Source: Streptomyces sp. NBC_01198
Lineage (GTDB): Bacteria; Actinomycetota; Actinomycetes; Streptomycetales; Streptomycetaceae
Reading direction: 5' to 3'
Length of the DNA: 64,000 nucleotides
Assembly: GCF_036010485.1 (NCBI RefSeq)
Contig: NZ_CP108568.1
Location: forward strand, 2,998,001-3,062,000
Shown here: piece by piece, positions 4,020-41,122 of the stretch
Position numbering within the stretch: the first letter of the stretch is position 1
How the letters are laid out: each line of letters begins with the position of its first letter
The notes under the pieces: model-generated
What the model was told of the DNA's origin: nothing
The model's database searches: none
What the model saw: only the letters and a program-made list of their open reading frames with translations
Made by a program: the position numbers and the translations under genes

Positions 4020-4973
4020 TCAGACCGAGGCGGTCTGCGAACCGGCCTCGGCGGCCTCCGACTCGGCGACCACACCGGCGACCCGGCGCAGCTTCTTCAT
4101 CGGGCCGAGCTCGCCGTCGTAGACCTTCTTGACGCCGTCGCCGAGCGAGGTCTCGATGATGCGGATGTCGCGGACCAGCCGCTCCAGGCCCTGCGACTCG
4201 ACCGAAGCGGCCTGGTCGGAGCCCCACATGGCGCGGTCCAGGGTGATGTGCCGCTCGACGAAGACCGCGCCGAGCGCGACGGCGGCCAGCGTGGTCTGCA
4301 GGCCGACCTCGTGGCCGGAGTAGCCGACCGGCACGTTCGGGTACTCGTTCTGCAGCGTGTTGATCATCCGCAGGTTGAGCTCGTCGTGCTTGGCCGGGTA
4401 GGTCGACGTGGCGTGGCAGAGCACGATGTTGTCGCTGCCGAGCACCTCCACGGCGTGCCGGATCTGCCGGGGGGTCGACATGCCGGTGGACAGGATCACC
4501 GTGCGGCCGGTGGCACGCAGCGCGCGCAGCAGGTCGTCGTCGGTCAGGCAGGCGGACGCCACCTTGTGCGCGGGCACGTCGAACTTCTCCAGGAAGGCGA
4601 CGGACTCCACGTCCCACGGCGACGCGAACCAGTCGATGCCGCGCTTGCGGCAGTACTCGTCGATGGAGCGGTAGCCGTTCTCGTCGAACTCGACGCGGTG
4701 CCGGTAGTCGATGTAGGTCATCCGGCCCCACGGGGTGTCCCGCTCGATCTCCCACTGGTCGCGCGGGGTGCAGATCTCCGGGGTGCGCTTCTGGAACTTG
4801 ACCGCGTCGCAGCCCGCGGCGACGGCCGCGTCGATCAGGGCGAACGCGTTCTCCAGGTCGCCGTTGTGGTTGATGCCGATCTCGCCGGTGACGTACACGG
4901 GCTGGCCGTTGCCGATGTGGCGGGAGCCGACCGGGCGGAGATTGGAGGGGAGGGAAGCGAGAGGAGAGGTCAC
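4020..4973 (-). CDS. neuB: NeuB-type N-acylneuraminate/Kdn (nonulosonic acid) synthase
   Basis: A 317-residue TIM-barrel synthase that condenses phosphoenolpyruvate with a six-carbon sugar to give a nine-carbon nonulosonic acid. Recognisable segments are EIGINHNG, GCDAVKFQKR, ASPWDVESVAFLEKF, STGMST, CHATSTYP, GYSGHEVG and the metal-ligand region VERHITLDRAMWGSDQ. The usual C-terminal SAF (antifreeze-like) domain of about 60 residues is absent and the protein ends in an Ala/Glu-rich tail. GTG 4973 is preceded by AGGA. It sits between the cytidylyltransferase/phosphatase fusion and a polysialyltransferase-like gene with short spacers, consistent with one operon. Whether the product is Neu5Ac, Kdn or another acid is not decided by sequence. 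Confidence 0.9.
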   Translation of the reverse strand: MTSPLASLPSNLRPVGSRHIGNGQPVYVTGEIGINHNGDLENAFALIDAAVAAGCDAVKFQKRTPEICTPRDQWEIERDTPWGRMTYIDYRHRVEFDENGYRSIDEYCRKRGIDWFASPWDVESVAFLEKFDVPAHKVASACLTDDDLLRALRATGRTVILSTGMSTPRQIRHAVEVLGSDNIVLCHATSTYPAKHDELNLRMINTLQNEYPNVPVGYSGHEVGLQTTLAAVALGAVFVERHITLDRAMWGSDQAASVESQGLERLVRDIRIIETSLGDGVKKVYDGELGPMKKLRRVAGVVAESEAAEAGSQTASV

Positions 4974-5021
4974 GGGGGAGTTCCTAACGGTGTTCGGGAC
5001 TGACGGGGGGAGGTGGCCGGG

Positions 5022-6272
5022 TCAGCGGGCCAGAGTGGGGCCGAGCAGCCATGCGGCGATCTCGCGGATCGCTCCGTGGCCGCCCTCGACCGTGGTGATC
5101 GCGCGGGCCGCGGCCCGTACGACGTCATGGGCCCCCGCGACGGCGACGGGCCAGCCGACCAGGCCGAAGCACGGCAGGTCGTTGACGTCGTTGCCGGCGT
5201 AGAGCACCCGCTCGGGCGCGATGCCGTTCTCCTCGCACCACTGCTTGAGCGCGAGGTCCTTGCGGTCGATGCCGTGCAGTACGGGGACGTCGAGCTTCCT
5301 CGCGCGCGCGGCGACGACCGGGTTGGTCTCGGTGGACAGGATGAGGACGGGAAGTCCCGCACGGCGCAGCGCCGCGATCCCGAGCCCGTCACCGCGGTGC
5401 ACGGTCACGGCCTCATGTCCGTCCGAATCGATCAGCACCCGGTCGTCGGTCTGGGTGCCGTCGAAGTCCAGTACGACCGCGTCGACGTCGTCGCGGGTCG
5501 GGGTGGCCGCCGTCGGGTCGAGCAACGGGGCCAGGGTGCGGGCGCGCTGGAGGTCGGCGGGCTCGTCGATCTCCAGCACCTTCGCGGGGTCGGTGCGGAC
5601 CAGGGCGGTCCGGCCGAAGAAGCGGTGGCCCGCGGCGCGGAATCCGGCGGCGCGCATGGCGTACGCGGCGCCGGTCTCCAGCAGGTCCTGCGGGCGGTCC
5701 TGGCGGCGCGGCCGGGTGGCCTTGTCGTGGTTGACCCCGTAGGCCGAGTCGCCCTCGGCGAAGTCGTCGGCCAGGTCCTCGGCCGCCTCGCGCCAGAGGA
5801 AGCCGTGGAAGGGGGCGACAGTGTGGGCGGTGTCGGCGCCGCCGTCCAGGACCGCGGCCACCACCCCGTCTATCTCCTCGGCGGTGATGAACGGGCTGGT
5901 GCACTGCACCAGCAGCACCACGTCGGTGGCCGCGCCGGCCGTCGTCTCGTGCGCGTCCATCGCGTGCAGCACGGCGGCCTCGCTGGTCGCGGTGTCACCT
6001 GCGATGGCGACCGGGCGCAGCACGACCTCGGCGCCCGCGGTCCTGGCGACCTCGGCGATCGAGGGGTCGTCGGTGGACACGACGACGGCGCTGACCCGCC
6101 GGGACCGCACGCACGCGCGGACCGCCCGCGCGACCAGCGGCACGCCGCCGATCGGGGCGAGGTTCTTGCCGGGTACGCCCTTGGATCCGCCGCGTGCGGG
6201 AATCACCGCCAGGACGGTGGCGCCGGCCTGGTCTGCTGCGGTGGCCGCCGGCGGGCGGGACGTCTGGCTCAT
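5022..6272 (-). CDS. neuA: bifunctional CMP-nonulosonate synthetase / KdsC-like phosphatase
   Basis: A 416-residue two-domain protein. Residues 20-250 are an acylneuraminate cytidylyltransferase with the nucleotide-binding signature IPARGGSKGVPGKN (24-37) and QCTSPF. Residues 263-416 are a HAD-superfamily phosphatase of the KdsC type with DFDGT (269-273), STE (313-315) and the metal site GNDVND (360-365). The fusion would hydrolyse a nonulosonate-9-phosphate and activate the free acid as CMP-sugar, flanking the NeuB step. The same architecture is known from animal CMP-sialate synthetases, and such fusions occur in actinomycetes. ATG 6272 has ACAGGAGT six bases upstream. Gap to neuB is 48 bp. 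Confidence 0.92.
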   Translation of the reverse strand: MSQTSRPPAATAADQAGATVLAVIPARGGSKGVPGKNLAPIGGVPLVARAVRACVRSRRVSAVVVSTDDPSIAEVARTAGAEVVLRPVAIAGDTATSEAAVLHAMDAHETTAGAATDVVLLVQCTSPFITAEEIDGVVAAVLDGGADTAHTVAPFHGFLWREAAEDLADDFAEGDSAYGVNHDKATRPRRQDRPQDLLETGAAYAMRAAGFRAAGHRFFGRTALVRTDPAKVLEIDEPADLQRARTLAPLLDPTAATPTRDDVDAVVLDFDGTQTDDRVLIDSDGHEAVTVHRGDGLGIAALRRAGLPVLILSTETNPVVAARARKLDVPVLHGIDRKDLALKQWCEENGIAPERVLYAGNDVNDLPCFGLVGWPVAVAGAHDVVRAAARAITTVEGGHGAIREIAAWLLGPTLAR

Positions 6273-6396
6273 CGGGTGACTCCTGTCATGACGTGCGGCT
6301 CCCCTGCGACAGGGGGTGTCGGATCGGGGCAGCCCCCGCCGGAGGAGGAAGCGCGGAACCGGGCGGGCCGGGCGCCGGCCGGGGCGCGGAATCGGG

Positions 6397-7695
6397 TCAC
6401 AGCTGCCCCCAGCGGCGGATCGTCGGGGCGACGCGCTGCACGCCCTGCCGATAGGCCGTCCTCGCGGAGTTGCGGACGAACTCGCGGACCGCCTGGCGGA
6501 CCGGGCCGGCCTCGCGCGGGGCGAAGCCGTCGATCGGGTCGGCCTGCGGGGTCAGGCCGTGGCGGGCCAGCACCCCGGGGAGGTAACCGGGGGCGGTGCG
6601 CAGCGTGTAGTAAGGGGACAGCGCCGGCAGCTCCGCCTCGTCGAGCAGCGCCGAGACGCGCCCGCGCAGGGCGGCGAAGGGGGCACTGCCCGCGACGCCG
6701 TGGGCCGCCGTCCACTCCGGGTCGGCCTTGGGCACATGGCAGTCGTCGAGCTCGTCCCACGAGGCGTAGCAGCCCGAGCCCAGGAAGTGGTGGTTGCCCA
6801 GCGACTCGCGGATGCCCAGGTCGGTGAGGACCGCGGTCGGGATGCCGCGGTGCAGCGATTCGAGCGCCGCGGTGGAGCTGACCGTCACCAGCAGGTCGGT
6901 GCGGTCCAGGACCTCGGCCATGTTGCCGTAGACAAGGCGCAGGTTGGCCGGCGGGTCGAGGGTGGCGACCAGCTTCTGGTAGGGCTGCTCCTCGATGTGG
7001 GTGGTGTGCTCACCGGGCTTGCTGCGGAGTTTGACCAGCACCTCGCGCGACGGGTGCAGCCGGGCGTGGCCGACGGCCCGCCGCAGCAGGTGCAGGCGGT
7101 CCGCGCGGCTGTCAGGCACCGAGGGCTGCACGGCGAAGGTGACGGTGAAGGGCCGGCTGTCGTCGGCCCGGTAGGGCTCGCCGCCCAGGAACGGCAGGGC
7201 GGTCTCCACGATGCTGCCGGTGCGGTAGCCGACACCGTCGTAGACGTCCCTGAACCGCCGTGCGTCGTCAGCGCTGTTGGCCAGCACGACGTCCGCACCG
7301 GCGCGCAGCAGCAGCCCGTCGGCGAGCTTCTCGTAGACCACGCCGACGTATCCGGTGACGACGACCGGGCGGCGGGTGCGGCCCTCCCAGGCACGGGACA
7401 GGCCGTGCAGCAGCGCCTGGACGGTGCCGCCGACGCAGGAGATGACCAGCACGTCGCAGGTGCCCGCGTGCGTCTGCGCCAGGATCTCCGCCGCGGTGGC
7501 CTCGACCATGGAGTCGGCGGGGATGCCGAGTTCGGCGAGCTGCCGCGGGGTGGGTGTGGCCCGGCCGCGGAGCAGCCGGGCGTCGAGACGGGCATCGGGG
7601 TCGATTCGGCGCGCGGTCAGCGCACCCCATTTCCACCGGGTGTCCGAGTCGGCGATCACAGTGACCCGCAAGGGGCCGGGCGTACGTTCAGGCAC
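6397..7695 (-). CDS. DUF6716 putative glycosyltransferase
   Basis: A 432-residue protein of the DUF6716 type, found in actinobacterial wall-polymer loci next to neuA/neuB-like genes. The N-terminus (VTVIADSDTRWKWGALTARR) looks like a Rossmann entry; the C-terminal half has YGNMAEVLDRTDLLVTVSST followed by GIPTAVLTDLG, as in GT-B transferases that recognise an S-S/T segment. No biochemical role is known to me. It is the first gene of the leftward arm, 124 bp upstream of the CMP-synthetase fusion and divergent from a GT2 gene. GTG 7695 follows TAGTGT by six bases with no ribosome site, so the mRNA may be leaderless. Confidence 0.8.
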   Translation of the reverse strand: MPERTPGPLRVTVIADSDTRWKWGALTARRIDPDARLDARLLRGRATPTPRQLAELGIPADSMVEATAAEILAQTHAGTCDVLVISCVGGTVQALLHGLSRAWEGRTRRPVVVTGYVGVVYEKLADGLLLRAGADVVLANSADDARRFRDVYDGVGYRTGSIVETALPFLGGEPYRADDSRPFTVTFAVQPSVPDSRADRLHLLRRAVGHARLHPSREVLVKLRSKPGEHTTHIEEQPYQKLVATLDPPANLRLVYGNMAEVLDRTDLLVTVSSTAALESLHRGIPTAVLTDLGIRESLGNHHFLGSGCYASWDELDDCHVPKADPEWTAAHGVAGSAPFAALRGRVSALLDEAELPALSPYYTLRTAPGYLPGVLARHGLTPQADPIDGFAPREAGPVRQAVREFVRNSARTAYRQGVQRVAPTIRRWGQL

Positions 7696-7701
7696 CCCCC
7701 G

Positions 7702-7707
7702 ACACTA
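7702..7707 (-). promoter_or_regulatory. candidate -10 hexamer TAGTGT for a leaderless leftward transcript
   Basis: TAGTGT lies six bases upstream of the GTG start at 7695, the spacing expected when transcription begins at the start codon itself. No Shine-Dalgarno sequence is present between them. The -35 region is not recognisable, so the sigma factor is unknown. Confidence 0.35.
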
Positions 7708-7867
7708 GGAAGCAGGCGGGTGGAATGCGCTAATCGGAGGACAACAACAGGTAAACAGAATGCCGCTACTTCGCGAGTACGCCCGCGTATTGACGACAAC
7801 ACCCGCTGGCCATTTTCCGTTTACCCAAACGTTCCCCGCCCGCCCATCATGCCGCGATGCGAGACCC

Positions 7868-7873
7868 TAGGAT
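7868..7873 (+). promoter_or_regulatory. candidate -10 hexamer TAGGAT upstream of the rightward arm
   Basis: The sequence CCCTAGGATT precedes GTG 7881 and recurs just upstream of the leftward glycosyltransferase gene (2524-2533 on the minus strand). TAGGAT is seven bases before GTG 7881. The overlapping AGGA could alternatively be a ribosome-binding site for that GTG. Confidence 0.35.
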
Positions 7874-7880
7874 TCGGCGG

Positions 7881-8909
7881 GTGGTCAAGCTCTCCGTCAT
7901 CGTGCCCTTTTTCAATGTGCAGCCTTTCGTGCCTGACGCGCTGCACAGCCTCCGGGCCAACGCCCGCCCGGACTACGAGTTCCTGCTGATGGACGACGGG
8001 TCGACCGACCGGACGCCGCAGCTGCTGGAAGAAGGGGTACGTACGCTCCCCGGAGCGCGCATCATCCGCCGGGAGCACACCGGGGTCTCCGCGCTGCGCA
8101 ACGCGGGCATCGACGAGTCCCGCGGCCGCTACGTGAACTTCATGGACGGCGACGACTGGCTCGCGCCCGGCTATCTGCCGCAACTGGTCGCCGCGATGGA
8201 CGAGCTGGACGTGGACTTCGTCCGTACCGACCACCTCAAGTGCACGGGAAGCACCCGCAACATCATGCGCGCCCCGCACGGCCGCAGGAACGCGGTGCTC
8301 GACCCGCGCGACACCGTGCTGCCGGCCGACCGGCCCGCGCTGGTCGACTACGCCTACTGCTGGGCCGGCGCCTTCCACCGCCGCATCGTCGACAAGGGCA
8401 TCGTGCACTTCCCGACCGACCTGCGCACCGCGGAGGACCGGCCGTGGACCTGGCAGCTGCACCTGGGCGCCGAGAGCTGCGCGGTGGTGAACCTGATCGG
8501 GGTGCACTACCGGCGCGGGGTCACCACCTCGCTCACCCAGATCAACGACGAGCGCCAGCTGGACTTCGTCCGGGCCTCGGAGCGGATCTTCTCCATGCTG
8601 GCCGGCGACAAGGACGGCGAGCGCTTCCTGCCCAAGGCCGTACGCCAGTTCTGCGCGCTGATCGTCTTCCACCTCGACCAGATCGACCGGTTCGAGCCGG
8701 CGATGGCCCGCCGGCTGAAGGCGGCCTGCGCCGCCGCGCTCGGCCGACTGCCGTCCGACGTGCTGGCCGGGGTGCTCGACTCGATGGACCTGGAGCGCAG
8801 TTCGAAGATCCGCCGGCTGCGCTGGCGCTTCGCCGGCCGGTCGGAGGGCGCGGAGCCGGAGATCGACACGCGGGACAACGCCGGCACTCCCGGTGCGGTG
8901 GTCGCGTGA
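7881..8909 (+). CDS. family-2 glycosyltransferase of the wall glycopolymer locus
   Basis: About 342 residues. The N-terminal 200 are a GT-A domain: KLSVIVPFFNVQPFVPDALHS, then DDGSTDRTP, then the DxD-like segment MDGDDWL. The C-terminal part is helical and unassigned. It should transfer a sugar or polyol unit from a nucleotide-activated donor in the cytoplasm. GTG 7881 is preferred because the protein then begins exactly at the GT2 core (VVKLSVIVPFFN) and AGGA is eight bases upstream; an in-frame ATG at 7857 is possible. The stop overlaps the start of the next gene (TGATG), indicating translational coupling within the rightward operon. Confidence 0.88.
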   Translation: MVKLSVIVPFFNVQPFVPDALHSLRANARPDYEFLLMDDGSTDRTPQLLEEGVRTLPGARIIRREHTGVSALRNAGIDESRGRYVNFMDGDDWLAPGYLPQLVAAMDELDVDFVRTDHLKCTGSTRNIMRAPHGRRNAVLDPRDTVLPADRPALVDYAYCWAGAFHRRIVDKGIVHFPTDLRTAEDRPWTWQLHLGAESCAVVNLIGVHYRRGVTTSLTQINDERQLDFVRASERIFSMLAGDKDGERFLPKAVRQFCALIVFHLDQIDRFEPAMARRLKAACAAALGRLPSDVLAGVLDSMDLERSSKIRRLRWRFAGRSEGAEPEIDTRDNAGTPGAVVA

Positions 8910-31982: not shown

Positions 31983-32282
31983 TCACCGTCCGGCAGGCGT
32001 CCGCTCCTGCTGCTGCGTCCCGGCCGGCGTCGGCCGCGGCTCGCGGCGCAGCGCGCGCAGGCCGCGCAGGCCGATGGCGCCGATCACGCTGCCGAAGACG
32101 GTGGAGACCACGGCCAGGGTGAGGTGGATCCAGAAGTACGCGGTCGGCGAGGAGTGGTCACCGTGGCGGAAGGCCAGACCGCTGGTGTCCTTCCACAGGT
32201 TCTTCACAAAGGTGACCCAGACGATCCACGACCACACCCCGAAGGCGGCGAGGAACCAGGACACCGGGCGACTGAGCTTCAT
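31983..32282 (-). CDS. SCO4848-like small membrane protein
   Basis: A 99-residue protein of a Streptomyces-conserved family named after SCO4848. Two hydrophobic segments (VSWFLAAFGVWSWIVWVTFV and FWIHLTLAVVSTVFGSVIGAIGL) flank a short loop with KDTSGLAFRHGDHSSPTAY; the C-terminus is basic and Gln/Pro-rich. Both termini should be cytoplasmic. It is divergent from a D,D-carboxypeptidase gene over 130 bp, so a cell-envelope role is possible, but no function is known to me. Confidence 0.85.
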   Translation of the reverse strand: MKLSRPVSWFLAAFGVWSWIVWVTFVKNLWKDTSGLAFRHGDHSSPTAYFWIHLTLAVVSTVFGSVIGAIGLRGLRALRREPRPTPAGTQQQERTPAGR

Positions 32283-32412
32283 ACGTCCCAGTATGGGCGC
32301 CGCCGCCGCGCCCCGGGCGGCCGGGGCAGGGGCACCGGAAGGGCGATCTTCACCCGGGTGCCCGCCGACCCTGGCCGGGAGGCTGACAGCTGAGGCCTGT
32401 ACGTTCTTCCGA

Positions 32413-33747
32413 GTGTCTACGCATCACACCGCGCCGCCCGCCCGTCGCGCGCTGCGCCACCGCATCCTGACCGTCACCGCGACGGCCGCGACCGCCGTGC
32501 TGCTGAGCGGCACCGCGCTGACCGGGACGGCCGCGGCCGCGCCGGCCCGCGGGCCGAAGGTGCCGCAACCGCCGGCCCAGATGTCGAAGGTCGGCGGCGA
32601 CCGGCTCGGGACACCCGGGACCCAGGTGGACCTGTCGGGCGGCGCTCCGGCACTGCCCGCCAAGCTGACCGCCCGCTCCTGGATCGTGGCGGACGCCGAG
32701 ACCGGCGACATCCTCGCCGAGCACAACGCGCACTGGCAGCTCGCTCCGGCCAGCACGCTGAAGATGCTCTTCGCCGACGTGGTGCTGCCGAAATTCCCCT
32801 CGACCGAGCAGCATGTCGTCGCGGCGAGCGACCTCAAGGGCATGGGCGAGGGCAGCAGCCTGGTCGGGATACAGGAGAACCAGGGCTACTCGGTGAAGGA
32901 CCTGTGGCTGGGGGTGTTCCTGCGCTCGGGCAATGACGCGGTCCACGTGCTGGCCGCGATGAACGGCGGCGTGACCAAGACCGTCGCCGACATGAACGCC
33001 CTGGCCAAGGAACTGCAGGCCGACGACACCAACGTCGTCACGCCGGACGGCTACGACGAGCCCGGCCAGCACAGCAGCGCGTACGACCTCACGCTCTTCG
33101 CCCGGCGCGGCCTGCAGAACGCCGACTTCCGCGCCTACTGCTCCACGGTCGTCGCGCAGTTCCCCGGCGACTTCAAGAAGGACAAGAAGGGCAAGCCGAC
33201 CAAGGTCCGCGAGTCCTTCCAGATCCAGAACACCGACCGCCTGCTCAGCGGTGACTACGACCTGAAGCGCTACCCGGGCATCGCCGGCGTGAAGAACGGC
33301 AACACGACCAACGCCGGCGCCACGTACACCGGGGTCGCGGAGCGCAACGGCCGCAAGCTGCTGGTCACCGTGATGAATCCGCAGCCGGGGCACAACGAGG
33401 TCTACCGGGAGGCCGGCGCCCTGCTGGACTGGGGCTTCAAGGCCGGCGCCAAGGCCAGGCCGGTCGGCACGCTGGTGCCGCCGCTCAGCGCGGTGAAGGC
33501 GGCCGCCTCGGCCACCCCCAAGCCCGGCGGCGACCGCGGCAAGCGGGTCAACGCCTCGGCGAGCACCTCGTCGTCGTCCTCGTCTGCCGGGCTGTGGACG
33601 GCCGTGGGCGTGACCGTGGGGACGGCGCTGCTGCTGGCGGTCGTCATCACCGTCATCCGCCGCCGGCGCCCGTTGCCGGCCGACGGCACCGGCCGCCGGT
33701 CGGAGCGGGGATCGGGGCGCGGATCCCGTCGCCGCAAGCGGGGCTGA
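32413..33747 (+). CDS. D-alanyl-D-alanine carboxypeptidase (class C-type low-mass PBP)
   Basis: A 444-residue exported, membrane-anchored serine peptidase of family S11. A signal peptide ends near residue 43 (TAAAAPA). The three penicillin-binding motifs are present: STLK (Ser114, Lys117), SGN (172-174) and KNG (294-296, in place of the common KTG). A Ser-rich linker and a C-terminal TM segment (about 410-432) with a basic tail follow. It trims the terminal D-Ala of peptidoglycan pentapeptides and so controls the balance of 4-3 and 3-3 cross-links; compare the L,D-transpeptidase at 13.4 kb. GTG 32413 gives a normal signal peptide. Confidence 0.93.
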   Translation: MSTHHTAPPARRALRHRILTVTATAATAVLLSGTALTGTAAAAPARGPKVPQPPAQMSKVGGDRLGTPGTQVDLSGGAPALPAKLTARSWIVADAETGDILAEHNAHWQLAPASTLKMLFADVVLPKFPSTEQHVVAASDLKGMGEGSSLVGIQENQGYSVKDLWLGVFLRSGNDAVHVLAAMNGGVTKTVADMNALAKELQADDTNVVTPDGYDEPGQHSSAYDLTLFARRGLQNADFRAYCSTVVAQFPGDFKKDKKGKPTKVRESFQIQNTDRLLSGDYDLKRYPGIAGVKNGNTTNAGATYTGVAERNGRKLLVTVMNPQPGHNEVYREAGALLDWGFKAGAKARPVGTLVPPLSAVKAAASATPKPGGDRGKRVNASASTSSSSSSAGLWTAVGVTVGTALLLAVVITVIRRRRPLPADGTGRRSERGSGRGSRRRKRG

Positions 33748-33816
33748 CCGGCGACCGCCGCCGCGGGATCGTCAACGGGGCGCCGCACAACTGTTGTTGA
33801 CCCCCGGGAGTCTGCT

Positions 33817-33837
33817 TGTTCACCGAAGTGGTGAACA
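33817..33837 (+). promoter_or_regulatory. perfect inverted repeat in the leader of the LAATG surface-protein gene
   Basis: TGTTCACC (33817-33824) and GGTGAACA (33830-33837) with loop GAAGT lie immediately before the ribosome-binding site AGGGGG of the surface-protein gene. A TTGACC -35-like sequence is at 33797-33802. The element could be an operator or an mRNA hairpin that controls access of ribosomes. Confidence 0.5.
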
Positions 33838-33848
33838 GGGGGTCGCTC

Positions 33849-35531
33849 ATGGTGACGAAGGAGCAGAGACGCCGCAGCCCGCGCGTGATCACGCGCGGGC
33901 TGGCCGTGGCCGTGGCGGTCGGGCTGGTGTGGGCGGCGGGCACCGCCCCGGCATCCGCCGCCGACGGGCTGCGGCTGTACAGCCAGGCGGACCTGACGCT
34001 GCCGCTGGGGCCCGCGGGTGGCGAGAACCCGGTGAAGTCGCTCTCGGTCCAGCTCGCCCACCAGATCCTCGACAGGACCGCACCCGGCACTCTGACGTTC
34101 GACGCCACGACGCTCGCCGGTGTCGCCGAGGTGACCTGGCCGGACGCCTGCACGCCGAGCGCGGACCGGAAGCACGCCGAGTGCGACGCGGCGGGGGTGA
34201 AGGGGACCGAGCACGACACGGTCGTCCTGCGGATCAAGGCGGCGCCCGGCGCCGCCGGCGGCGCGAAGGGGACGGTGCGCTACACCGGCAGTTCGCCCGG
34301 CCTGCCGGACGTGAGCGGCCAGACGACGGTGACCGTGGGCGCCGTCGCGGACGTCTTCATGCACGGGTTGCCGGAAAAGGTGGCGGCGAAGCCGGGTGAC
34401 CTGGTCCCGCTGTCCTTCGCGCTGACCAACCGCGGCGGGCAGCCGGGCGCCGGGAGCATCCTCACGGCCCACGCCTCCGGCGGCCTCGACTCCCTGTCGC
34501 ACTACGGCAACTGCGCGTACGGATACGTCGACAGCCCGGACCGCCGGTGGGTGGGCATGCTCAGCTGCGTGCTCCCCCCGGTGGCCCCGGGCACGACGGT
34601 GTCCTACACCGACGGGGTGCCCTTCCGCGTGCACGCCTCCGGGCTGATCGAGGACGTGGAGATCAGCCTGGTGGATTACACGCCGGAGGCGCTGGCCGAC
34701 TCGCGCAGGGGGTCCACCCTGGTCCAGGGCGACGGCCCGGACATGGTCCCGCACACCGGTGGCACCACCGCGCAGGACTGGCAGACCGGCTACAGCTGGG
34801 CGGACCCGAAGATCAACGTCGACAACACCGCGGACTTCGCGCTGTCCGTGGCGCCGGTCAAGGGCCCCAAGGGCGCGACCGTCACCGCCGCCGTGGAGCT
34901 GGCGGACCGCGGCCCGGCACGCTACGTGGACTCCTGGAACGAGCGGCCGGCCGCCCAGGTCGAGTTCGATCCGCCGCCCGGCACCACGGTCGTCGGGGCC
35001 AACGAGGACTGCCTCGGCTACGACAAGCACGGGAAGCTGCTGGACTACAACGTCCCCGGTGTCCATTACGTCTGCACGCAGGGCTGGTTCTTCCTGCCCG
35101 GGCAGTCCGTGACGGACTTCTTCAAGTTGCGGATCGACAAGGTGATCCCCAACGCGACGGGCAGGGCCTTCCTCACCCCCGGCTACGCGACGCCGTACGA
35201 CAGGAATCCCGCGAACGACACGGCGAAGGTCGTGGTCAACGCCAAGGCGGCCGGCGGGACCTCGAACGGCGGCACCGGCGGCGGCACCGGCACCTCGGGG
35301 GCCGCCGGCGGTGCCGGCACGGCGGCCGGCGGCGCCGGCGGCTCCCCCACGGCGGGCCCTGCCACCGGCGGCACCGGGTCGGCCGGCGGCGCCGGCGCGT
35401 CCCCCGACGGCAGGCTGGCCGCCACCGGCAGCGACCACGTGGCCCTGGTCGGCGGGATCGCGATGGGCTGCGGCCTGCTCGGCGGGGCGGTGCTGCTCCT
35501 GCTGCGGTCGCGGCGGCGTACGGCCGCCTGA
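33849..35531 (+). CDS. sortase-anchored (LAATG) cell-surface protein
   Basis: A 560-residue secreted protein. The signal peptide ends near residue 38 (APASA-ADG). The body contains two or three beta-rich domains of DUF11/CARDB-like appearance (KPGDLVPLSFALTNRGGQPG and KGPKGATVTAAVELADRGPARY), then a long Gly/Thr/Ala/Ser linker. The C-terminus is a sorting signal: LAATG (523-527), hydrophobic helix and RSRRRTAA. LAXTG is the motif used by class E sortases of Streptomyces, as for the chaplins, so the protein should be covalently attached to peptidoglycan. ATG 33849 has AGGGGG upstream. Function is unknown; adhesion or aerial-surface structure are possibilities. Confidence 0.88.
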   Translation: MVTKEQRRRSPRVITRGLAVAVAVGLVWAAGTAPASAADGLRLYSQADLTLPLGPAGGENPVKSLSVQLAHQILDRTAPGTLTFDATTLAGVAEVTWPDACTPSADRKHAECDAAGVKGTEHDTVVLRIKAAPGAAGGAKGTVRYTGSSPGLPDVSGQTTVTVGAVADVFMHGLPEKVAAKPGDLVPLSFALTNRGGQPGAGSILTAHASGGLDSLSHYGNCAYGYVDSPDRRWVGMLSCVLPPVAPGTTVSYTDGVPFRVHASGLIEDVEISLVDYTPEALADSRRGSTLVQGDGPDMVPHTGGTTAQDWQTGYSWADPKINVDNTADFALSVAPVKGPKGATVTAAVELADRGPARYVDSWNERPAAQVEFDPPPGTTVVGANEDCLGYDKHGKLLDYNVPGVHYVCTQGWFFLPGQSVTDFFKLRIDKVIPNATGRAFLTPGYATPYDRNPANDTAKVVVNAKAAGGTSNGGTGGGTGTSGAAGGAGTAAGGAGGSPTAGPATGGTGSAGGAGASPDGRLAATGSDHVALVGGIAMGCGLLGGAVLLLLRSRRRTAA

Positions 35532-35581: not shown

Positions 35582-36547
35582 CTAGGGGGTCCAGCGGCTC
35601 GCGCCGCCCTCGGCCTGCTCACCGGCCGGCTGCTTGGCGGGCTCGGGCGCCGGCCGGTCGGGGGCGTGGCGCGGGGTGGCGGTCCAGGCGGCGCAGTAGA
35701 GCAGCAGCTTGGCCATGAAGTTGATCCACAGCAGCAGGGCGACGGGCGTGCCGAAGGCACCGTAGATGTTGCGCCCCGCGACCCGCTGGAGGTAGCTGGC
35801 CAGCGCGACCTTCAGGAACTCCAGACCCACCGAGCCGATCAGCGCGGCCACGAGCACCGGCTGGCGCGGCGGGTCGACGCCCGGCATCAGGGTGAGCAGG
35901 TAGAGCAGGATCGCGAAGTCGGCGACGACCGCGAGCACGTAGCCGACGACGGCCAGCACGACCCGCCCGCCGCTCTGCTCCGACAGGCCGATGCGGTCGG
36001 CGATCCAGTTGACCGCGATGGTGGCGAAGCCGGACGCGCTGAGCGAGACGAGTACGGAGACCCCGAGGCCGAACAGGACGCCGGCGTCGACGAGCTTGCC
36101 GACCACCGGGTTCTGGCCTGACTGGTCCTTGCGCCACACCGCGCGCAGGCAGTCCCGCAGCGAGCTGACCCAGCCGATACCGGTGATGAGCAGCACGCCG
36201 GAGGCGATGAGGCCGACGGTGCCGGCGTTGGAGACCAGGCCGGTGATGTCGATCTGGTCGGCGATGCCGGGGATCTGCTCGGTGAGCTTGTGCTCCAGCC
36301 TGTCGAGCTGATGCTGCGACAGCAGGGCCGCGCCCAGCGCGGCGGCCACCGTGATCAGCGGGAAGAGCGCCAGGAAGCTGGTGAAGGTCATCGCGGCGGC
36401 CAGCCGCGTCCAGTGCACCTCCTCCAGGTGCGCGAAGGCCCGCCAGGCGTGCGTCCGGCCCACGCGGGTCACCAGCGGCTTGACGCGCCGGTCGTACCAC
36501 GGCCCGAGCCGTGGACCGATCCACGGAACCCGGGTCAGCCAGTCCAT
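35582..36547 (-). CDS. YihY/BrkB-family membrane protein
   Basis: A 321-residue integral membrane protein with six hydrophobic segments. Family features are AAAMTFTSFLALFPLITVAAALGA, GIGWVSSLRDCLRAVW and YGAFGTPVALLLWINFMAKLLL (each shortened here). Earlier annotation of this family as ribonuclease BN is wrong; its true function, possibly envelope or lipid related, is unsettled. Its start overlaps the end of the GtrA gene by 13 bp, so it is translationally linked to the decaprenyl-phospho-arabinose genes upstream. The C-terminal tail is Pro/Glu-rich and cytoplasmic. Confidence 0.88.
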   Translation of the reverse strand: MDWLTRVPWIGPRLGPWYDRRVKPLVTRVGRTHAWRAFAHLEEVHWTRLAAAMTFTSFLALFPLITVAAALGAALLSQHQLDRLEHKLTEQIPGIADQIDITGLVSNAGTVGLIASGVLLITGIGWVSSLRDCLRAVWRKDQSGQNPVVGKLVDAGVLFGLGVSVLVSLSASGFATIAVNWIADRIGLSEQSGGRVVLAVVGYVLAVVADFAILLYLLTLMPGVDPPRQPVLVAALIGSVGLEFLKVALASYLQRVAGRNIYGAFGTPVALLLWINFMAKLLLYCAAWTATPRHAPDRPAPEPAKQPAGEQAEGGASRWTP

Positions 36548-37113
36548 GTGGGACGGCTACCCTCCTCCGGCCCCCGCACGCCGCTGCTGCCCCTGGTGGC
36601 GGTACGGAAGACCAGGGTGCGGGTGCCCCAGAAGCGCAGGGCGGTGGCCAGCACCATGCCGACGCCCGCGCCGGAGACGATGTCCGCGCGCGGGCTGGTC
36701 AGGCCCAGCACATAGTGCGACCCGGCCAGGCACAGCAACTGGACGCCGGCGCCCGCGGCGTTGACGGCGAAGAAGACGCCGTAGCGGCGGGCCCGGCCGG
36801 TGGCGGGGGTGCGGCGGCGGTAGGTGCCCAGCGCGTTGCCGAGGTAGGCGACGGTGCAGCCGGCCAGGAAGGACACCGACTTGGCGGTGAGCGGCCCGAG
36901 CCCGGTGTGCCCGCGCAGCCAGATGAAAAGACCGAGGTCGGCGGCGTAGGCGGCGCCGCCGGCGACGGCGAAGCCGGCGATCTCGGGCAGCATCGCGCGC
37001 AGCCCGGCGGCGCGGCGGCGGGCGCCCGGCGACGGACGCCCGGGCGCCCGCCGCGGTCGGGGACGCGGCGGGCGTCGCGGGGTGCGCCGGGAGGAGTCGG
37101 TGCGCCCGCTCAT
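36535..37113 (-). CDS. GtrA-family small membrane protein
   Basis: A 192-residue protein with a 45-residue Arg/Pro-rich cytoplasmic N-terminus and four transmembrane helices (EIAGFAVAGGAAYAADLGLF, LTAKSVSFLAGCTVAYLGNALGTYR, FFAVNAAGAGVQLL, GAGVGMVLATALRFWGTRTLVF). In mycobacteria the GtrA protein Rv3789 is encoded beside dprE1 and dprE2 and has been linked to handling decaprenyl-phospho-arabinose or recruiting an arabinosyltransferase. Here it overlaps the phosphoribosyltransferase gene (ATGA, start 37113), which supports a role in the same pathway. Confidence 0.88.
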   Translation of the reverse strand: MSGRTDSSRRTPRRPPRPRPRRAPGRPSPGARRRAAGLRAMLPEIAGFAVAGGAAYAADLGLFIWLRGHTGLGPLTAKSVSFLAGCTVAYLGNALGTYRRRTPATGRARRYGVFFAVNAAGAGVQLLCLAGSHYVLGLTSPRADIVSGAGVGMVLATALRFWGTRTLVFRTATRGSSGVRGPEEGSRPTWTG

Positions 37114-38081
37114 CTGTTGACCGCGGCGAGCACATACAGCGCTCCCCAGGCCAGGCCGATCACCACGAGGGCGCGGTCGCGCAGCAGGACGTCCTCCGGT
37201 GCCCCGGCCGAGCCGGCGTCGGCGAAGACGGCGTAGCGCAGCAACGACAGGATGAACGGGATCATCGACAGCTGGCGCCACGGCAGCAGCCCGGAGGCCG
37301 TACCGCCGGTCTCCATGGCCCACAGGCAGTACGCGAGCATCCCGACGCCGGCCGCGAGCTGCCACACGAAGCGCAGATAGCCCGCGGTGTACTCGCCGAG
37401 CAGCGCGCGGGTGGCGCCGACCTCGCTCTCCTTGCCGGACATCAGCACCAGCTCGGAGTAGCGCTTGGCGGCGACCATGAACAGGGCGCAGAAGCCTGAG
37501 GTGATCAGGAACCAGCGGGACAGGCCGATACCGAGGGCGACCCCGCCGGCCATGGCGCGCATCAGGAAGCCGGTGGTGACGATCACCAGGTCGACCACCA
37601 GCATGTGCTTGAGCCAGACGCAGTAGGCCAGCTGCATCACCACGTAGCCGGCCAGCAGCCCCGCGGTGTCGGCGTTGCAGGTCAGCGCGGCGGTCACCGG
37701 CGCCGCCACCGCGAGCACCCCGCCCGCGGCGTAGGCGGCGCCGACCGGGACCTGCCCGCGGGCCACCGGCCGCTCCCGCTTGACCGGGTGGGCCCGGTCG
37801 GCCTCGGCGTCCCGCGCGTCGTTGATCAGGTAGACCGCCGACGCGCACGCGGTGAACAGCACCAGGACGACGCCGAGCTGGACCGAGTCCCGCACCGACA
37901 GCAGCCGCCCGGCGGCGAAGGGCGCCGCGAGCACCAGGCCGTTCTTGACCCACTGGCGCGGCCGGGCGGTGCGCACCAGTCCAGCGGGCAGTCCCCCGTC
38001 GGCCGGCCGGCCGACCTCGATCCCCGCGACGTCACCGGTGTCCTTGACCGTCACGACCCCGGGTTCACCCACCGGACCCAC
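37110..38081 (-). CDS. UbiA-type decaprenyl-phosphate phosphoribosyltransferase
   Basis: A UbiA-superfamily membrane prenyl-acceptor enzyme of about 314-323 residues with eight or nine TM helices. The Asp-rich motif reads NDARDAEADRAHPVKRERPVA (given as NDARDAEADR then HPVKRERP), exactly the pattern of Mycobacterium Rv3806c, which moves 5-phosphoribose from PRPP to decaprenyl phosphate. A second motif region includes AKRYSELVLMSGKE. It catalyses the first committed step to decaprenyl-phospho-arabinose. Start codons GTG 38081, 38072 and 38054 are all possible. Coupled to the GtrA gene downstream and close to the PAP2 gene upstream. Confidence 0.92.
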   Translation of the reverse strand: MGPVGEPGVVTVKDTGDVAGIEVGRPADGGLPAGLVRTARPRQWVKNGLVLAAPFAAGRLLSVRDSVQLGVVLVLFTACASAVYLINDARDAEADRAHPVKRERPVARGQVPVGAAYAAGGVLAVAAPVTAALTCNADTAGLLAGYVVMQLAYCVWLKHMLVVDLVIVTTGFLMRAMAGGVALGIGLSRWFLITSGFCALFMVAAKRYSELVLMSGKESEVGATRALLGEYTAGYLRFVWQLAAGVGMLAYCLWAMETGGTASGLLPWRQLSMIPFILSLLRYAVFADAGSAGAPEDVLLRDRALVVIGLAWGALYVLAAVNR

Positions 38082-38676
38082 CGCCCAGCGTCCAGCTGCG
38101 CCCCAGCCGGGCCGCGGCGGCGCCCAGCAGCGCGCCGCAGGCGACGTCGCTCGGGTAGTGGACCCCGGCGACCAGCCGGGAGACGCATATCGCGGCGGCG
38201 AGTACGGGGACGGCGGCCGCGCCCGGCAGCAGCGCGCCGAAGGCGATCACGGCGGCGGCCGAGGAGGTGGCGTGCGAGGAGGGGAAGCTGTGCCGTCCCG
38301 CGGTGCGTACCAGCGGAGCCGCGCCGGGGATTCGCGGCCGGGGGCGGCGTACGACCCGTTTGGCGCCCATGCTCGCCGCGTGCGCGGCGCCGACGACGGC
38401 GGTGGCCCGCAGCCAGGCACGTCGCCGTTCGGGATCCGCCAGCGCGCCGGCCGCCCCTGCGGCCACCCATACCGCCCCGTGCTCGCCGGTCTGCCCGAGG
38501 ACGCGGACCACGTTCGCGACCCGTACGTCGCCGCCGCACTCCCGCAGCAGCGCGAGCAGCCGCCGCTCAGCGCGGGCGACGCCGCCGGCGGGGCGCCGGC
38601 CGGGGGGTCCTGAGGGGGCCGGGGCGAGCCGGGATATCGAGGTGCCGCGCTGTGCGGCGGGGTCGGATCGGCGCAT
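38065..38676 (-). CDS. PAP2-family phosphatase of the decaprenyl-phospho-arabinose set
   Basis: A 203-residue membrane phosphatase with the three PAP2 segments: KRVVRRPRP, PSSHAT and SRLVAGVHYPSD, whose two His and Arg residues form the active site. The mycobacterial equivalent Rv3807c is encoded next to the phosphoribosyltransferase and is proposed to remove the 5-phosphate from decaprenyl-phosphoryl-5-phosphoribose. The same assignment fits here because the downstream gene is that transferase. ATG 38676 is the first Met that leaves a hydrophilic leader; the Arg/Pro-rich sequence before it is unlikely to be coding. Confidence 0.88.
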   Translation of the reverse strand: MRRSDPAAQRGTSISRLAPAPSGPPGRRPAGGVARAERRLLALLRECGGDVRVANVVRVLGQTGEHGAVWVAAGAAGALADPERRRAWLRATAVVGAAHAASMGAKRVVRRPRPRIPGAAPLVRTAGRHSFPSSHATSSAAAVIAFGALLPGAAAVPVLAAAICVSRLVAGVHYPSDVACGALLGAAAARLGRSWTLGGGSGG

Positions 38677-38952
38677 CGGCGGTTTTCTCCCTCCGCGTGG
38701 TGGTCCCGCGGGGTGGCCGCGAGGCCGGGTCCCGCGGGGTGTCCGCGGGTCGTCCGCGGAGCTCTCCCGCGGTGCGCACACGGGACGTGCGCGAACCGTC
38801 CGCACCTCCGGTGCGAGATGTCGCACCGCGATGCGTCCAGCCCCGAGTGATTACCGTGCGGGCCGCCCGCTCACGCAGCGGGACTCACCCTTTACGGTGA
38901 GAAACACGGCATAACCCCCTTTTGGTATCTTCCGGACGATACGGTCAGCGAT
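38677..38952. promoter_or_regulatory. divergent promoter region of the decaprenyl-phospho-arabinose genes
   Basis: This 276-base spacer lies between the leftward PAP2 and rightward dprE1 genes. It contains the small hairpin CTCACC-CTTTAC-GGTGAG close to 38883-38900, a relatively AT-rich stretch, and TACGGT seven bases before ATG 38953 with no ribosome site, which suggests a leaderless dprE1 mRNA. Confidence 0.4.
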
Positions 38953-40332
38953 ATGCCCGTACCCTTCGCCGCCGACCCCGCCGCCGAGGCCACCTCCGTC
39001 ACCGGTTGGGGCCGTACCGCACCCAGCTCCGCGCAGGTGCTGCGCCCCGGCACGTACGAGGAGGTGGTGCGCGCGGTCCGCGAGTGCGGCGGGCGCGGGA
39101 CGATCGCCCGCGGGCTCGGGCGGGCGTACGGGGACGCGGCGCAGAATGCCGGCGGCGCGGTGCTGGACATGACGGGTCTGGACCGCATCCACGAGATCGA
39201 CGCGGTCAACGGCCTGGTGGTGTGCGACGCGGGGGTCTCGCTGCACCGGCTGATGCAGGTGCTGCTGCCGCTGGGCTGGTTCGTCCCGGTCTCCCCCGGC
39301 ACCCGCTACGTCACCGTCGGCGGGGCGATCGGCGCCGACATCCACGGCAAGAACCACCATGTGTCCGGCTCCTTCTGCCGCCACGTCCGGGCGCTGGAAC
39401 TGCTCACCGGTGACGGGGAGACCCGGCTGGTCACCCCGGAGGACGAGCCCGACCTGTTCTGGGCGACGGCCGGCGGCATGGGCCTGACCGGCGTGGTGCT
39501 GGCCGCCACCATCGCGCTGCTGCCGGTCGAGACGTCACTGATGACGGTGGACACCGAGCGGGCCACCGACCTGGACGACCTGATGGCCAGACTGGCCGCC
39601 GACGACCACCGCTACCGCTACTCCGTGGCGTGGATCGACCTGCTCGCCCGCGGCGCGAAGACCGGCCGCGCGGTGCTGACCCGCGGCGACCACGCGCCGC
39701 TCGACGCGCTGCCCGCCCGGCTGCGCGAGGAGCCACTGGCCTTCCGTCCCGGCCGGCTGCCCGCCGCCCCGCGCTTCCTGCCCGACGGGCTGCTCGGCCG
39801 CCACAGCGTCGGTCTGTTCAACGAGATCTGGTACCGCAAGGCCCCGCGCCGGCAGCGCGGCCGGCTGCAGAAGCTCAGCAGCTTCTTCCACCCGCTGGAC
39901 GGCCTGCCGGAGTGGAACCGGATCTACGGGCGCGGCGGCTTCGTGCAGTATCAGTTCGTCGTCGGCCTCGGCGAGGAGGACGCGCTGCGCCGCATCGTGC
40001 GCCGCATCGGGTCCCGCCGCTGCCCGTCCTTCCTCGCGGTGCTCAAGCGCTTCGGCGACGCCGACCCCGGCTGGCTGTCCTTCCCGGTGCCCGGCTGGAC
40101 GCTGGCCCTGGACATCCCGGCCGACCTGCCCGGTCTGGCCGCCTTCCTCGACGAGCTGGACGACGAGGTCGCGGCGGCCGGCGGCCGGGTCTACCTGGCC
40201 AAGGACGCCCGGCTGCGCCCCGACGTGCTGGCCCGGATGTATCCGCGGCTCGACGAGTTCCGCGAGCTGCGCAGCCGCTACGACCCGCGCGGCGCCATCA
40301 CCTCCGACCTCGCCCGCCGGCTCGGCGTATGA
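38953..40332 (+). CDS. dprE1: decaprenylphospho-beta-D-ribose 2-oxidase (DprE1 homologue)
   Basis: A 459-residue VAO-type flavoenzyme. FAD-binding segments include GLGRAYGDAAQNAGG, SPGTRYVTVGGAIGADIHGKNHH and SGSFCRHV; the C-terminal substrate domain ends SDLARRLGV, as in Mycobacterium DprE1 (461 residues). With DprE2 it epimerises decaprenyl-phospho-ribose to the arabinose form by oxidising the 2-hydroxyl. At the position of mycobacterial Cys387 (GWNICVDF) the sequence reads PGWTLALDI with Ala385, so the residue covalently hit by benzothiazinones is missing. ATG 38953 has no Shine-Dalgarno sequence. dprE2 follows after 34 bp. Confidence 0.93.
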   Translation: MPVPFAADPAAEATSVTGWGRTAPSSAQVLRPGTYEEVVRAVRECGGRGTIARGLGRAYGDAAQNAGGAVLDMTGLDRIHEIDAVNGLVVCDAGVSLHRLMQVLLPLGWFVPVSPGTRYVTVGGAIGADIHGKNHHVSGSFCRHVRALELLTGDGETRLVTPEDEPDLFWATAGGMGLTGVVLAATIALLPVETSLMTVDTERATDLDDLMARLAADDHRYRYSVAWIDLLARGAKTGRAVLTRGDHAPLDALPARLREEPLAFRPGRLPAAPRFLPDGLLGRHSVGLFNEIWYRKAPRRQRGRLQKLSSFFHPLDGLPEWNRIYGRGGFVQYQFVVGLGEEDALRRIVRRIGSRRCPSFLAVLKRFGDADPGWLSFPVPGWTLALDIPADLPGLAAFLDELDDEVAAAGGRVYLAKDARLRPDVLARMYPRLDEFRELRSRYDPRGAITSDLARRLGV

Positions 40333-40366: not shown

Positions 40367-41122
40367 ATGAAGGACGCCTTCGGTGCCCCGCAGTCCCTGC
40401 TGATCCTCGGCGGCACCTCGGAGATCGGCCTGGCGACCGCCCGCCGGCTGATCACCCGCCGCACCCGCACGGTCTTCCTGGCCGGCCGCCCGTCGCAGGG
40501 CCTGGAGGCGGCGGCGGCCTCGCTGCGGGCGATCGGCGCCGAGGTGCACACCGTGGCCTTCGACGCGCTCGACACGGGCTCGCACGAGATCACCCTCGGC
40601 AAGGTCTTCGCCGAGGGCGACATCGACATGGTGCTGCTGGCCTTCGGGGTGCTCGGCGACCAGGCGCGCGACGAGCAGGAACCGCTGGCCGCGGTGCAGG
40701 TCGCGCAGGTCAACTACACGGGGGCGGTCTCCGCGTCGCTGGTGTGCGCGGCGGCCCTGCAGGCGCAGGGACACGGCTCGCTTGTGGTGCTGTCGTCGGT
40801 GGCCGGCGAGCGCGCCCGCCGGGTCAACTTCATCTACGGCAGCAGCAAGGCGGGCCTGGACGCCTTCTGCCAGGGCCTGGCCGACGCCATGCACGGCTCG
40901 GGGGTGCATGTGATGACGGTCAGGCCCGGTTTCGTCCGCACCCGGATGACGGCGGGAATGCCGGAGGCCCCGCTGGCCACCACGCCGGACGCGGTGGCCA
41001 CCGCGATCGAGCTGGGGCTGCGGCGCCGGAGCGGCACGATCTGGGTGCCGGGGGCGCTGCGGGTGGTGATGGCGGGCATCCGCCATCTGCCGCGCCCGCT
41101 CTTCCGCCGGCTGCCGGTCTGA
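40367..41122 (+). CDS. dprE2: decaprenylphospho-keto-pentose reductase (DprE2 homologue, SDR)
   Basis: A 251-residue short-chain dehydrogenase. It has the nucleotide motif GGTSEIG (residues 15-21), a catalytic Ser in VLSSVAGE, and YGSSKAG with the Tyr-x-x-x-Lys pair. It should reduce the 2-keto intermediate made by DprE1 using NADH or NADPH to give decaprenyl-phospho-arabinose. The sequence GTIWVPGALRVVMAGIRHLPRPLFRRLP near the end (quoted in part) is typical for DprE2. It is transcribed with dprE1, and a near-perfect palindrome begins 2 bp after the stop codon. Confidence 0.92.
   Translation: MKDAFGAPQSLLILGGTSEIGLATARRLITRRTRTVFLAGRPSQGLEAAAASLRAIGAEVHTVAFDALDTGSHEITLGKVFAEGDIDMVLLAFGVLGDQARDEQEPLAAVQVAQVNYTGAVSASLVCAAALQAQGHGSLVVLSSVAGERARRVNFIYGSSKAGLDAFCQGLADAMHGSGVHVMTVRPGFVRTRMTAGMPEAPLATTPDAVATAIELGLRRRSGTIWVPGALRVVMAGIRHLPRPLFRRLPV

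Follow-up and report, generated by a model that had tools for sequence, protein, structure and literature searches.

We consider it very probable that the DprE1 encoded in the window (the whole stretch of 64,000 nucleotides analysed here) is an ordinary member of its family within a complete gene set for polyprenylphosphoryl arabinose (DPA), that the alanine it carries in place of the drug-reactive cysteine of M. tuberculosis DprE1 is typical of its lineage, and that it should resist covalent inhibitors. The source genome, a 7.9-Mb single contig, falls in the genus group of Actinacidiphila, Streptomycetaceae, and carries one dprE1. The placement comes from two genomes with its genus code (G446 and G449), which have exact stretches of DNA in common with named records of Actinacidiphila paucisporea and A. 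cocklensis. Nine further matches in the genome were considered as a second dprE1; they were only partial (E 2e-17 or weaker, 27-43% identity) and thus represent distant FAD enzymes. The features of the locus are as follows.

38953..40332 (stop included), + strand: dprE1, decaprenylphosphoryl-beta-D-ribose oxidase, 459 aa (NF053785, PDB chains, fold match)
40099..40110, + strand: codons of T383-L384-A385-L386, aligned with M. tuberculosis N385-I386-C387-V388 (alignment)
40105..40107, + strand: codon GCC of Ala385, counterpart of M. tuberculosis Cys387 (codon check, alignment)
40367..41122, + strand: dprE2, the reductase completing 2'-epimerisation (NF053786 371 bits, cut-off 250)
38065..38826, - strand: PAP2-family phosphatase, candidate for 5'-phosphate removal (Pfam PAP2 57 bits; putative role, from position)
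37110..38081, - strand: ubiA-family decaprenyl-phosphate phosphoribosyltransferase (DPPR synthase; NF008978 394 bits, cut-off 207; Pfam UbiA)
about 36535..37110, - strand: GtrA-family small membrane protein, candidate lipid-sugar translocation partner (Pfam GtrA 73 bits; putative role)

The product of dprE1 scored 687.3 bits against the NCBIfam DprE1 equivalog NF053785 (cut-off 500) and contains the Pfam FAD_binding_4 domain. It matched the solved M. tuberculosis DprE1 chains over nearly its full length (phmmer, E about 1e-135), with 219 identities in 444 aligned columns (49%). The AlphaFold2 model (mean pLDDT 88) places Ala385 within a strand (381-389), and its top PDB matches were M. tuberculosis DprE1 structures (TM 0.84-0.89, query length). 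At such similarity, a chance resemblance to DprE1 would be of no concern. The paired reductase gene dprE2 lies downstream, and judging from the profile matches the locus would hold a full DPA gene set, with the PAP2 and GtrA proteins in putative roles.

Elsewhere in the window, a 572-aa ORF with coding-like composition and without a Pfam match (33816-35531) lies between a peptidase S11 gene (32074-33747) and a BrkB-family gene. A further group of genes (4020-8909), which encodes a NeuB-family synthase, a cytidylyltransferase with a HAD-type region, a DUF6716 putative glycosyltransferase and a GT2 transferase (all by Pfam), looks like a pathway for a nonulosonic (sialic-acid-like) sugar.

The initial annotation had read the codon at 40105-40107, inside the segment PGWTLALDI, as an alanine opposite Cys387 of mycobacterial DprE1. 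The codon check and the alignments bear this out: GCC encodes Ala385, and in the alignment with the DprE1 structures it stands opposite Cys387, with 40 ungapped columns before that residue and five after it, which rules out a shifted alignment that would place another cysteine in the pocket. The annotation had also named a cysteine elsewhere in the pocket as grounds for giving up its reading. The window enzyme has four cysteines (45, 91, 142 and 357), which align with V42, I92, G143 and H359 of M. tuberculosis DprE1, none of them a contact site among those compared. The enzyme therefore has Ala385 instead of the cysteine that marks DprE1 proteins sensitive to covalent benzothiazinones. Among the pocket sites compared, V365, Y314, W230, K418 and Y60 were taken as contacts from PMC6153800 (excerpt), and the others are regarded as contacts as well. 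By M. tuberculosis numbering, the window enzyme keeps Y60, H132, K134, W230, V365, K367, Y415 and K418. Beyond 387 its pocket departs from that of M. tuberculosis at 228, 314, 320, 385, 386 and 388, so the replacement of Cys by Ala is not the sole difference between the two.

How unusual is an alanine at this position? We surveyed site 387 in 291 DprE1 sequences from five genome draws in one alignment, which excluded the window, the reference and 80 named loci. In the window's own family (f1, n=104; one further fragment, from G458, ends short of the site) we found Ala in 92 sequences, Thr in nine, Glu in two and Ser in one. Two other families, f3 and f113, were tabulated separately; their gene content suggests that f3 is the mycobacterial family and f113 Pseudonocardiaceae. 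In f3, sampled by 69 sequences where one draw alone found 149 matching genomes, the counts were Cys 56, Ala 10, Ser 2 and Thr 1. The f113 sample (n=35; 34 genes from 30 loci plus one gene from another draw) contained Thr 14, Cys 12 and Ser 9. All remaining families together (n=83; 40 of about 61 class-draw matches were fetched, plus L237) gave Ala 70, Thr 12 and Cys 1. Thus Cys387 occurred in 68 of the 104 f3 and f113 sequences versus one of 187 elsewhere, and in none of the 104 from the window's family. The named set was drawn with an alignment that had L034 at its head and consists of the best 80 among 587 matches; some of its organisms recur in the unnamed draws. It contained 74 Ala, three Thr and three Ser sequences but none with Cys; because of the query that picked it, this set says little on mycobacteria. 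Longimycelium (L286), by name one of the Pseudonocardiaceae, belongs to this set and has Ala. The treatment of Ala385 as a special feature therefore did not survive, as Ala is the commonest residue both in f1 and in the families outside f3 and f113. On these sequences Ala385 appears ordinary for its lineage, and the drug-reactive cysteine the exception.

Several individual loci deserve mention. Outside f3 and f113, a single DprE1 of the Cys type was found (L034 1501-2832, - strand, genome G374, family f74); it has Thr at 385, comes from a genome without Emb and would allow benzothiazinone trapping to be tested on a naturally occurring enzyme. Four f113 loci (L361, L362, L364 and L365) each contain two adjoining dprE1 copies; those of L364 and L365 differ at 387, where a Cys-type copy is paired with a Thr-type one, so that one of the two would be expected to evade covalent drugs. 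At L145-L149, and at a handful of further f1 loci, the DprE1 relatives have Ser, Thr or Glu at 387, and K418, K367 or Y60 is replaced in a few f1 sequences (counts per site, irrespective of the state of 387). Actinobacterial dprE1 genes also turned up in two metagenome bins recorded as Bifidobacterium breve and in a record named Bacillus sp. AZ43 (L282, L291 and L310), names that are probably wrong.

The pocket around residue 387 varies together with it. Outside f3 and f113, Ala387 mostly comes with Thr385, Phe314, Val228 and Leu386, and the window enzyme shows the same pattern; this company of residues suggests a lineage-typical pocket rather than a resistance change. In f3, Cys387 is accompanied by Asn385, Tyr314 and Ser228. 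Ten Ala387 sequences of f3 retain Asn385, so the alanine there looks like a change inside a Cys-type pocket. These ten, together with the Cys of L034 in a genome without Emb, mean that residue 387 is no strict mark of lineage. Across the 291 sequences, site 387 holds mainly Ala, Cys, Thr or Ser, and Q334, Q336, Y60, H132, K134, K367 and K418 are near invariant, the last five all being present in the window enzyme.

Two trees were built without the trait columns. The first (112 rows, with three short rows dropped and f1 and f3 each represented by a selection) contained four changes between Cys and non-Cys, and the second (fasttree, 285 rows), from which the 80 named loci and eight rows of unusual length, long or short, had been removed, contained seven. 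In the larger tree, all Cys rows except L034 fell in one clade, together with all f3 rows, all f113 rows and one f1 row. Both trees are unrooted and the direction of change at 387 is read from its spread: since Ala is spread across nearly all other families, Ala appears to be the older state and Cys the derived one.

We then asked whether the genome has the enzymes that use DPA for arabinan. In the source genome, neither Emb (PF04602; the Corynebacterium glutamicum control was positive) nor AftA (PF12250) gave a match genome-wide. Emb was found in all eight f3 genomes scanned, in none of 25 f1 genomes, of which 15 have dprE1 and 10 lack it, and in none of 40 genomes from other families that bear dprE1; a second scan found it in 16 of 22 f113 genomes and in none of 27 others (two overlap the first scan). 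AftA was likewise present in 8/8 f3 and 0/25 f1 genomes. A rule that Emb means Cys was broken by several Emb-positive f113 genomes with Thr or Ser. Within f1, all 15 genomes bearing dprE1 also have DprE2, and a dprE1 match was found in 99 of 200 genomes of the family. Given that neither Emb nor AftA turned up, and that roughly one in two of the family's sampled genomes carries dprE1, DprE1 is probably dispensable in the source genome, and growth inhibition would be a poor readout of residue 387.

What the enzyme does, and how it would respond to drugs, we infer from its sequence, alignment, predicted fold and distribution. By family membership, DprE1 with its FAD would oxidise the 2'-OH of polyprenylphosphoryl ribose, and DprE2 would then reduce the ketone to give the arabinose form. 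Residue 387 lines the pocket without being conserved: Ala, with T385, F314 and V228, is the lineage-typical state here, and Cys387 appears to belong to a derived pocket type (N, M or L at 385, mostly Y314) seen in two families in which most genomes have Emb. The window enzyme would reduce a nitrobenzothiazinone and, having no thiol at 387, would resist covalent trapping; reversible inhibition would be weak at best.

Changes at Cys387 had been said to give resistance, and excerpts of the published work agree. Natural benzothiazinone resistance is attributed to Ala at 387 in M. avium and to Ser in M. aurum (PMC3206020, excerpt). M. abscessus also has Ala, a likely cause of resistance there, and BTZ-043 and PBTZ-169 are inactive against it while OPC-167832 is active (PMC9765218, excerpt). 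A table in PMC8152995 (excerpt) lists C387A/G/S/T/N as resistance changes. That the window enzyme would be insensitive to covalent inhibitors follows well from the published cases. The annotation had gone on to call the enzyme naturally insensitive: its reasoning on the covalent nitroso-benzothiazinone adduct appears sound, but the term holds only in a relative sense, since macozinone still inhibits the Cys387Ser enzyme (IC50 3.6 uM, against 0.3 uM for the wild type; PMC6153800, excerpt). In the literature searched, we found no enzyme or drug test on any streptomycete DprE1.

Could Ala385 instead be a resistance acquired under selection by nitroaromatic soil products of this or neighbouring actinomycetes? 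Streptomycete products do include nitro compounds (PMC12598795, excerpt), and changes at 387 can confer resistance, as listed above. However, Cys is absent from the window's family, the Ala of 70 of the 83 other-family sequences mostly comes with T385 as in the window, and neither tree shows a Cys-type ancestor of the window's clade. Acquisition from a Cys-type ancestor is thus largely refuted, and we regard this explanation as highly improbable. An unlikely but somewhat more credible alternative is that the protein is a DprE1 paralogue, inactive or with another substrate, in which case residue 387 would be uninformative on benzothiazinones. The missing Emb and AftA would fit a paralogue, as would family members without pocket residues such as K418; the equivalog-level score, the retention of all eight pocket residues from Y60 to K418 named above, and the adjoining dprE2 and ubiA, both above their cut-offs, argue against it.

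That the window enzyme is still clearly inhibited by benzothiazinones through non-covalent binding is possible, though we would not expect it. The macozinone value for M. tuberculosis C387S and the retention of the majority of contact residues speak for such binding, whereas M. abscessus, which also has Ala, is reported to be unaffected by BTZ-043 and PBTZ-169, and the window pocket differs at the six further sites given above.

What might DPA serve in genomes without Emb? Of 113 loci, 27 have a relative of NAGPA (PF09992) at a distance of 0.5-3.1 kb from dprE1, with an N-terminal membrane anchor as judged by eye (L043, L049, L054-L058, L061, L065, L069, L140, L150-L153, L155-L158, L186, L187 and L189-L194). 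The count is rough, as the neighbouring ORFs came from a crude gene caller; the family was assigned through a Pfam match to a single member, L157. Seventeen of these loci belong to f1, mostly next to dprE1 genes of a divergent group, seven to f53, two to f15 and one to f25, and the gene order NAGPA-ubiA-dprE1-dprE2 is frequent among them. The source genome has a PF09992 match that spans a similar part of the profile (G000:C1:7034484-7034900) and is unlinked to dprE1; matches occur in 33 of 43 genomes, so presence alone means little. Sugar-phosphate diesters are the substrate class of the NAGPA family (phosphodiester glycosidases), and prenylphosphoryl arabinose is one of them. The NAGPA relative is a candidate enzyme acting on prenylphosphoryl arabinose. 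A literature search on this lead gave nothing on point among the matches listed. More speculatively, and with more doubt than conviction, most DprE1 proteins of the phylum might serve a DPA pathway unrelated to arabinogalactan, which would feed an undescribed extracytoplasmic glycoconjugate handled by NAGPA relatives in several lineages, and the Cys-type pocket might have arisen when the pathway was taken over for arabinan.

The survey also bears on published statements. The cysteine has been called highly conserved in orthologues from various Actinobacteria (PMC3206020, and similarly PMC6015584, both in excerpt), and one study, likewise in excerpt, describes Streptomyces as lacking a DprE1 orthologue. 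As general statements, both fail. The claims of high conservation reflect a narrow sample, and the published S. somaliensis result itself is not contradicted by our survey. We found no phylum-wide picture of residue 387 in the literature searched, which covered few subscription journals. Taken singly, Ala385 is ordinary. The wider distribution of residue 387 is of some importance, with the mild surprise that the well-known cysteine to which the drugs attach turns out to be the exceptional form. Covalent DprE1 drugs rely on a residue that is largely confined to two families and already varies there to Ala, Ser or Thr, and the many DprE1 proteins in genomes without Emb raise a testable question, namely how polyprenylphosphoryl arabinose is used outside arabinan-makers.

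Among known systems, the window enzyme shares its family, its fold, a dprE2 neighbour and most pocket residues with M. tuberculosis DprE1 (Rv3790; PDB 4ncr, 6hez, 4p8l and others), from which it differs in having Ala385, Thr383, Phe312 and Val225 instead of Cys387, Asn385, Tyr314 and Ser228. At the benzothiazinone position it resembles the DprE1 of M. avium and M. abscessus, two species with Ala and reported natural resistance (PMC3206020 and PMC9765218, excerpts). The second DprE1 copy of Nocardia brasiliensis, a resistant genotype according to its authors (PMC4608729, excerpt), is also of the non-Cys type, but it has Ser and exists alongside a Cys copy, whereas the window genome has a single dprE1.
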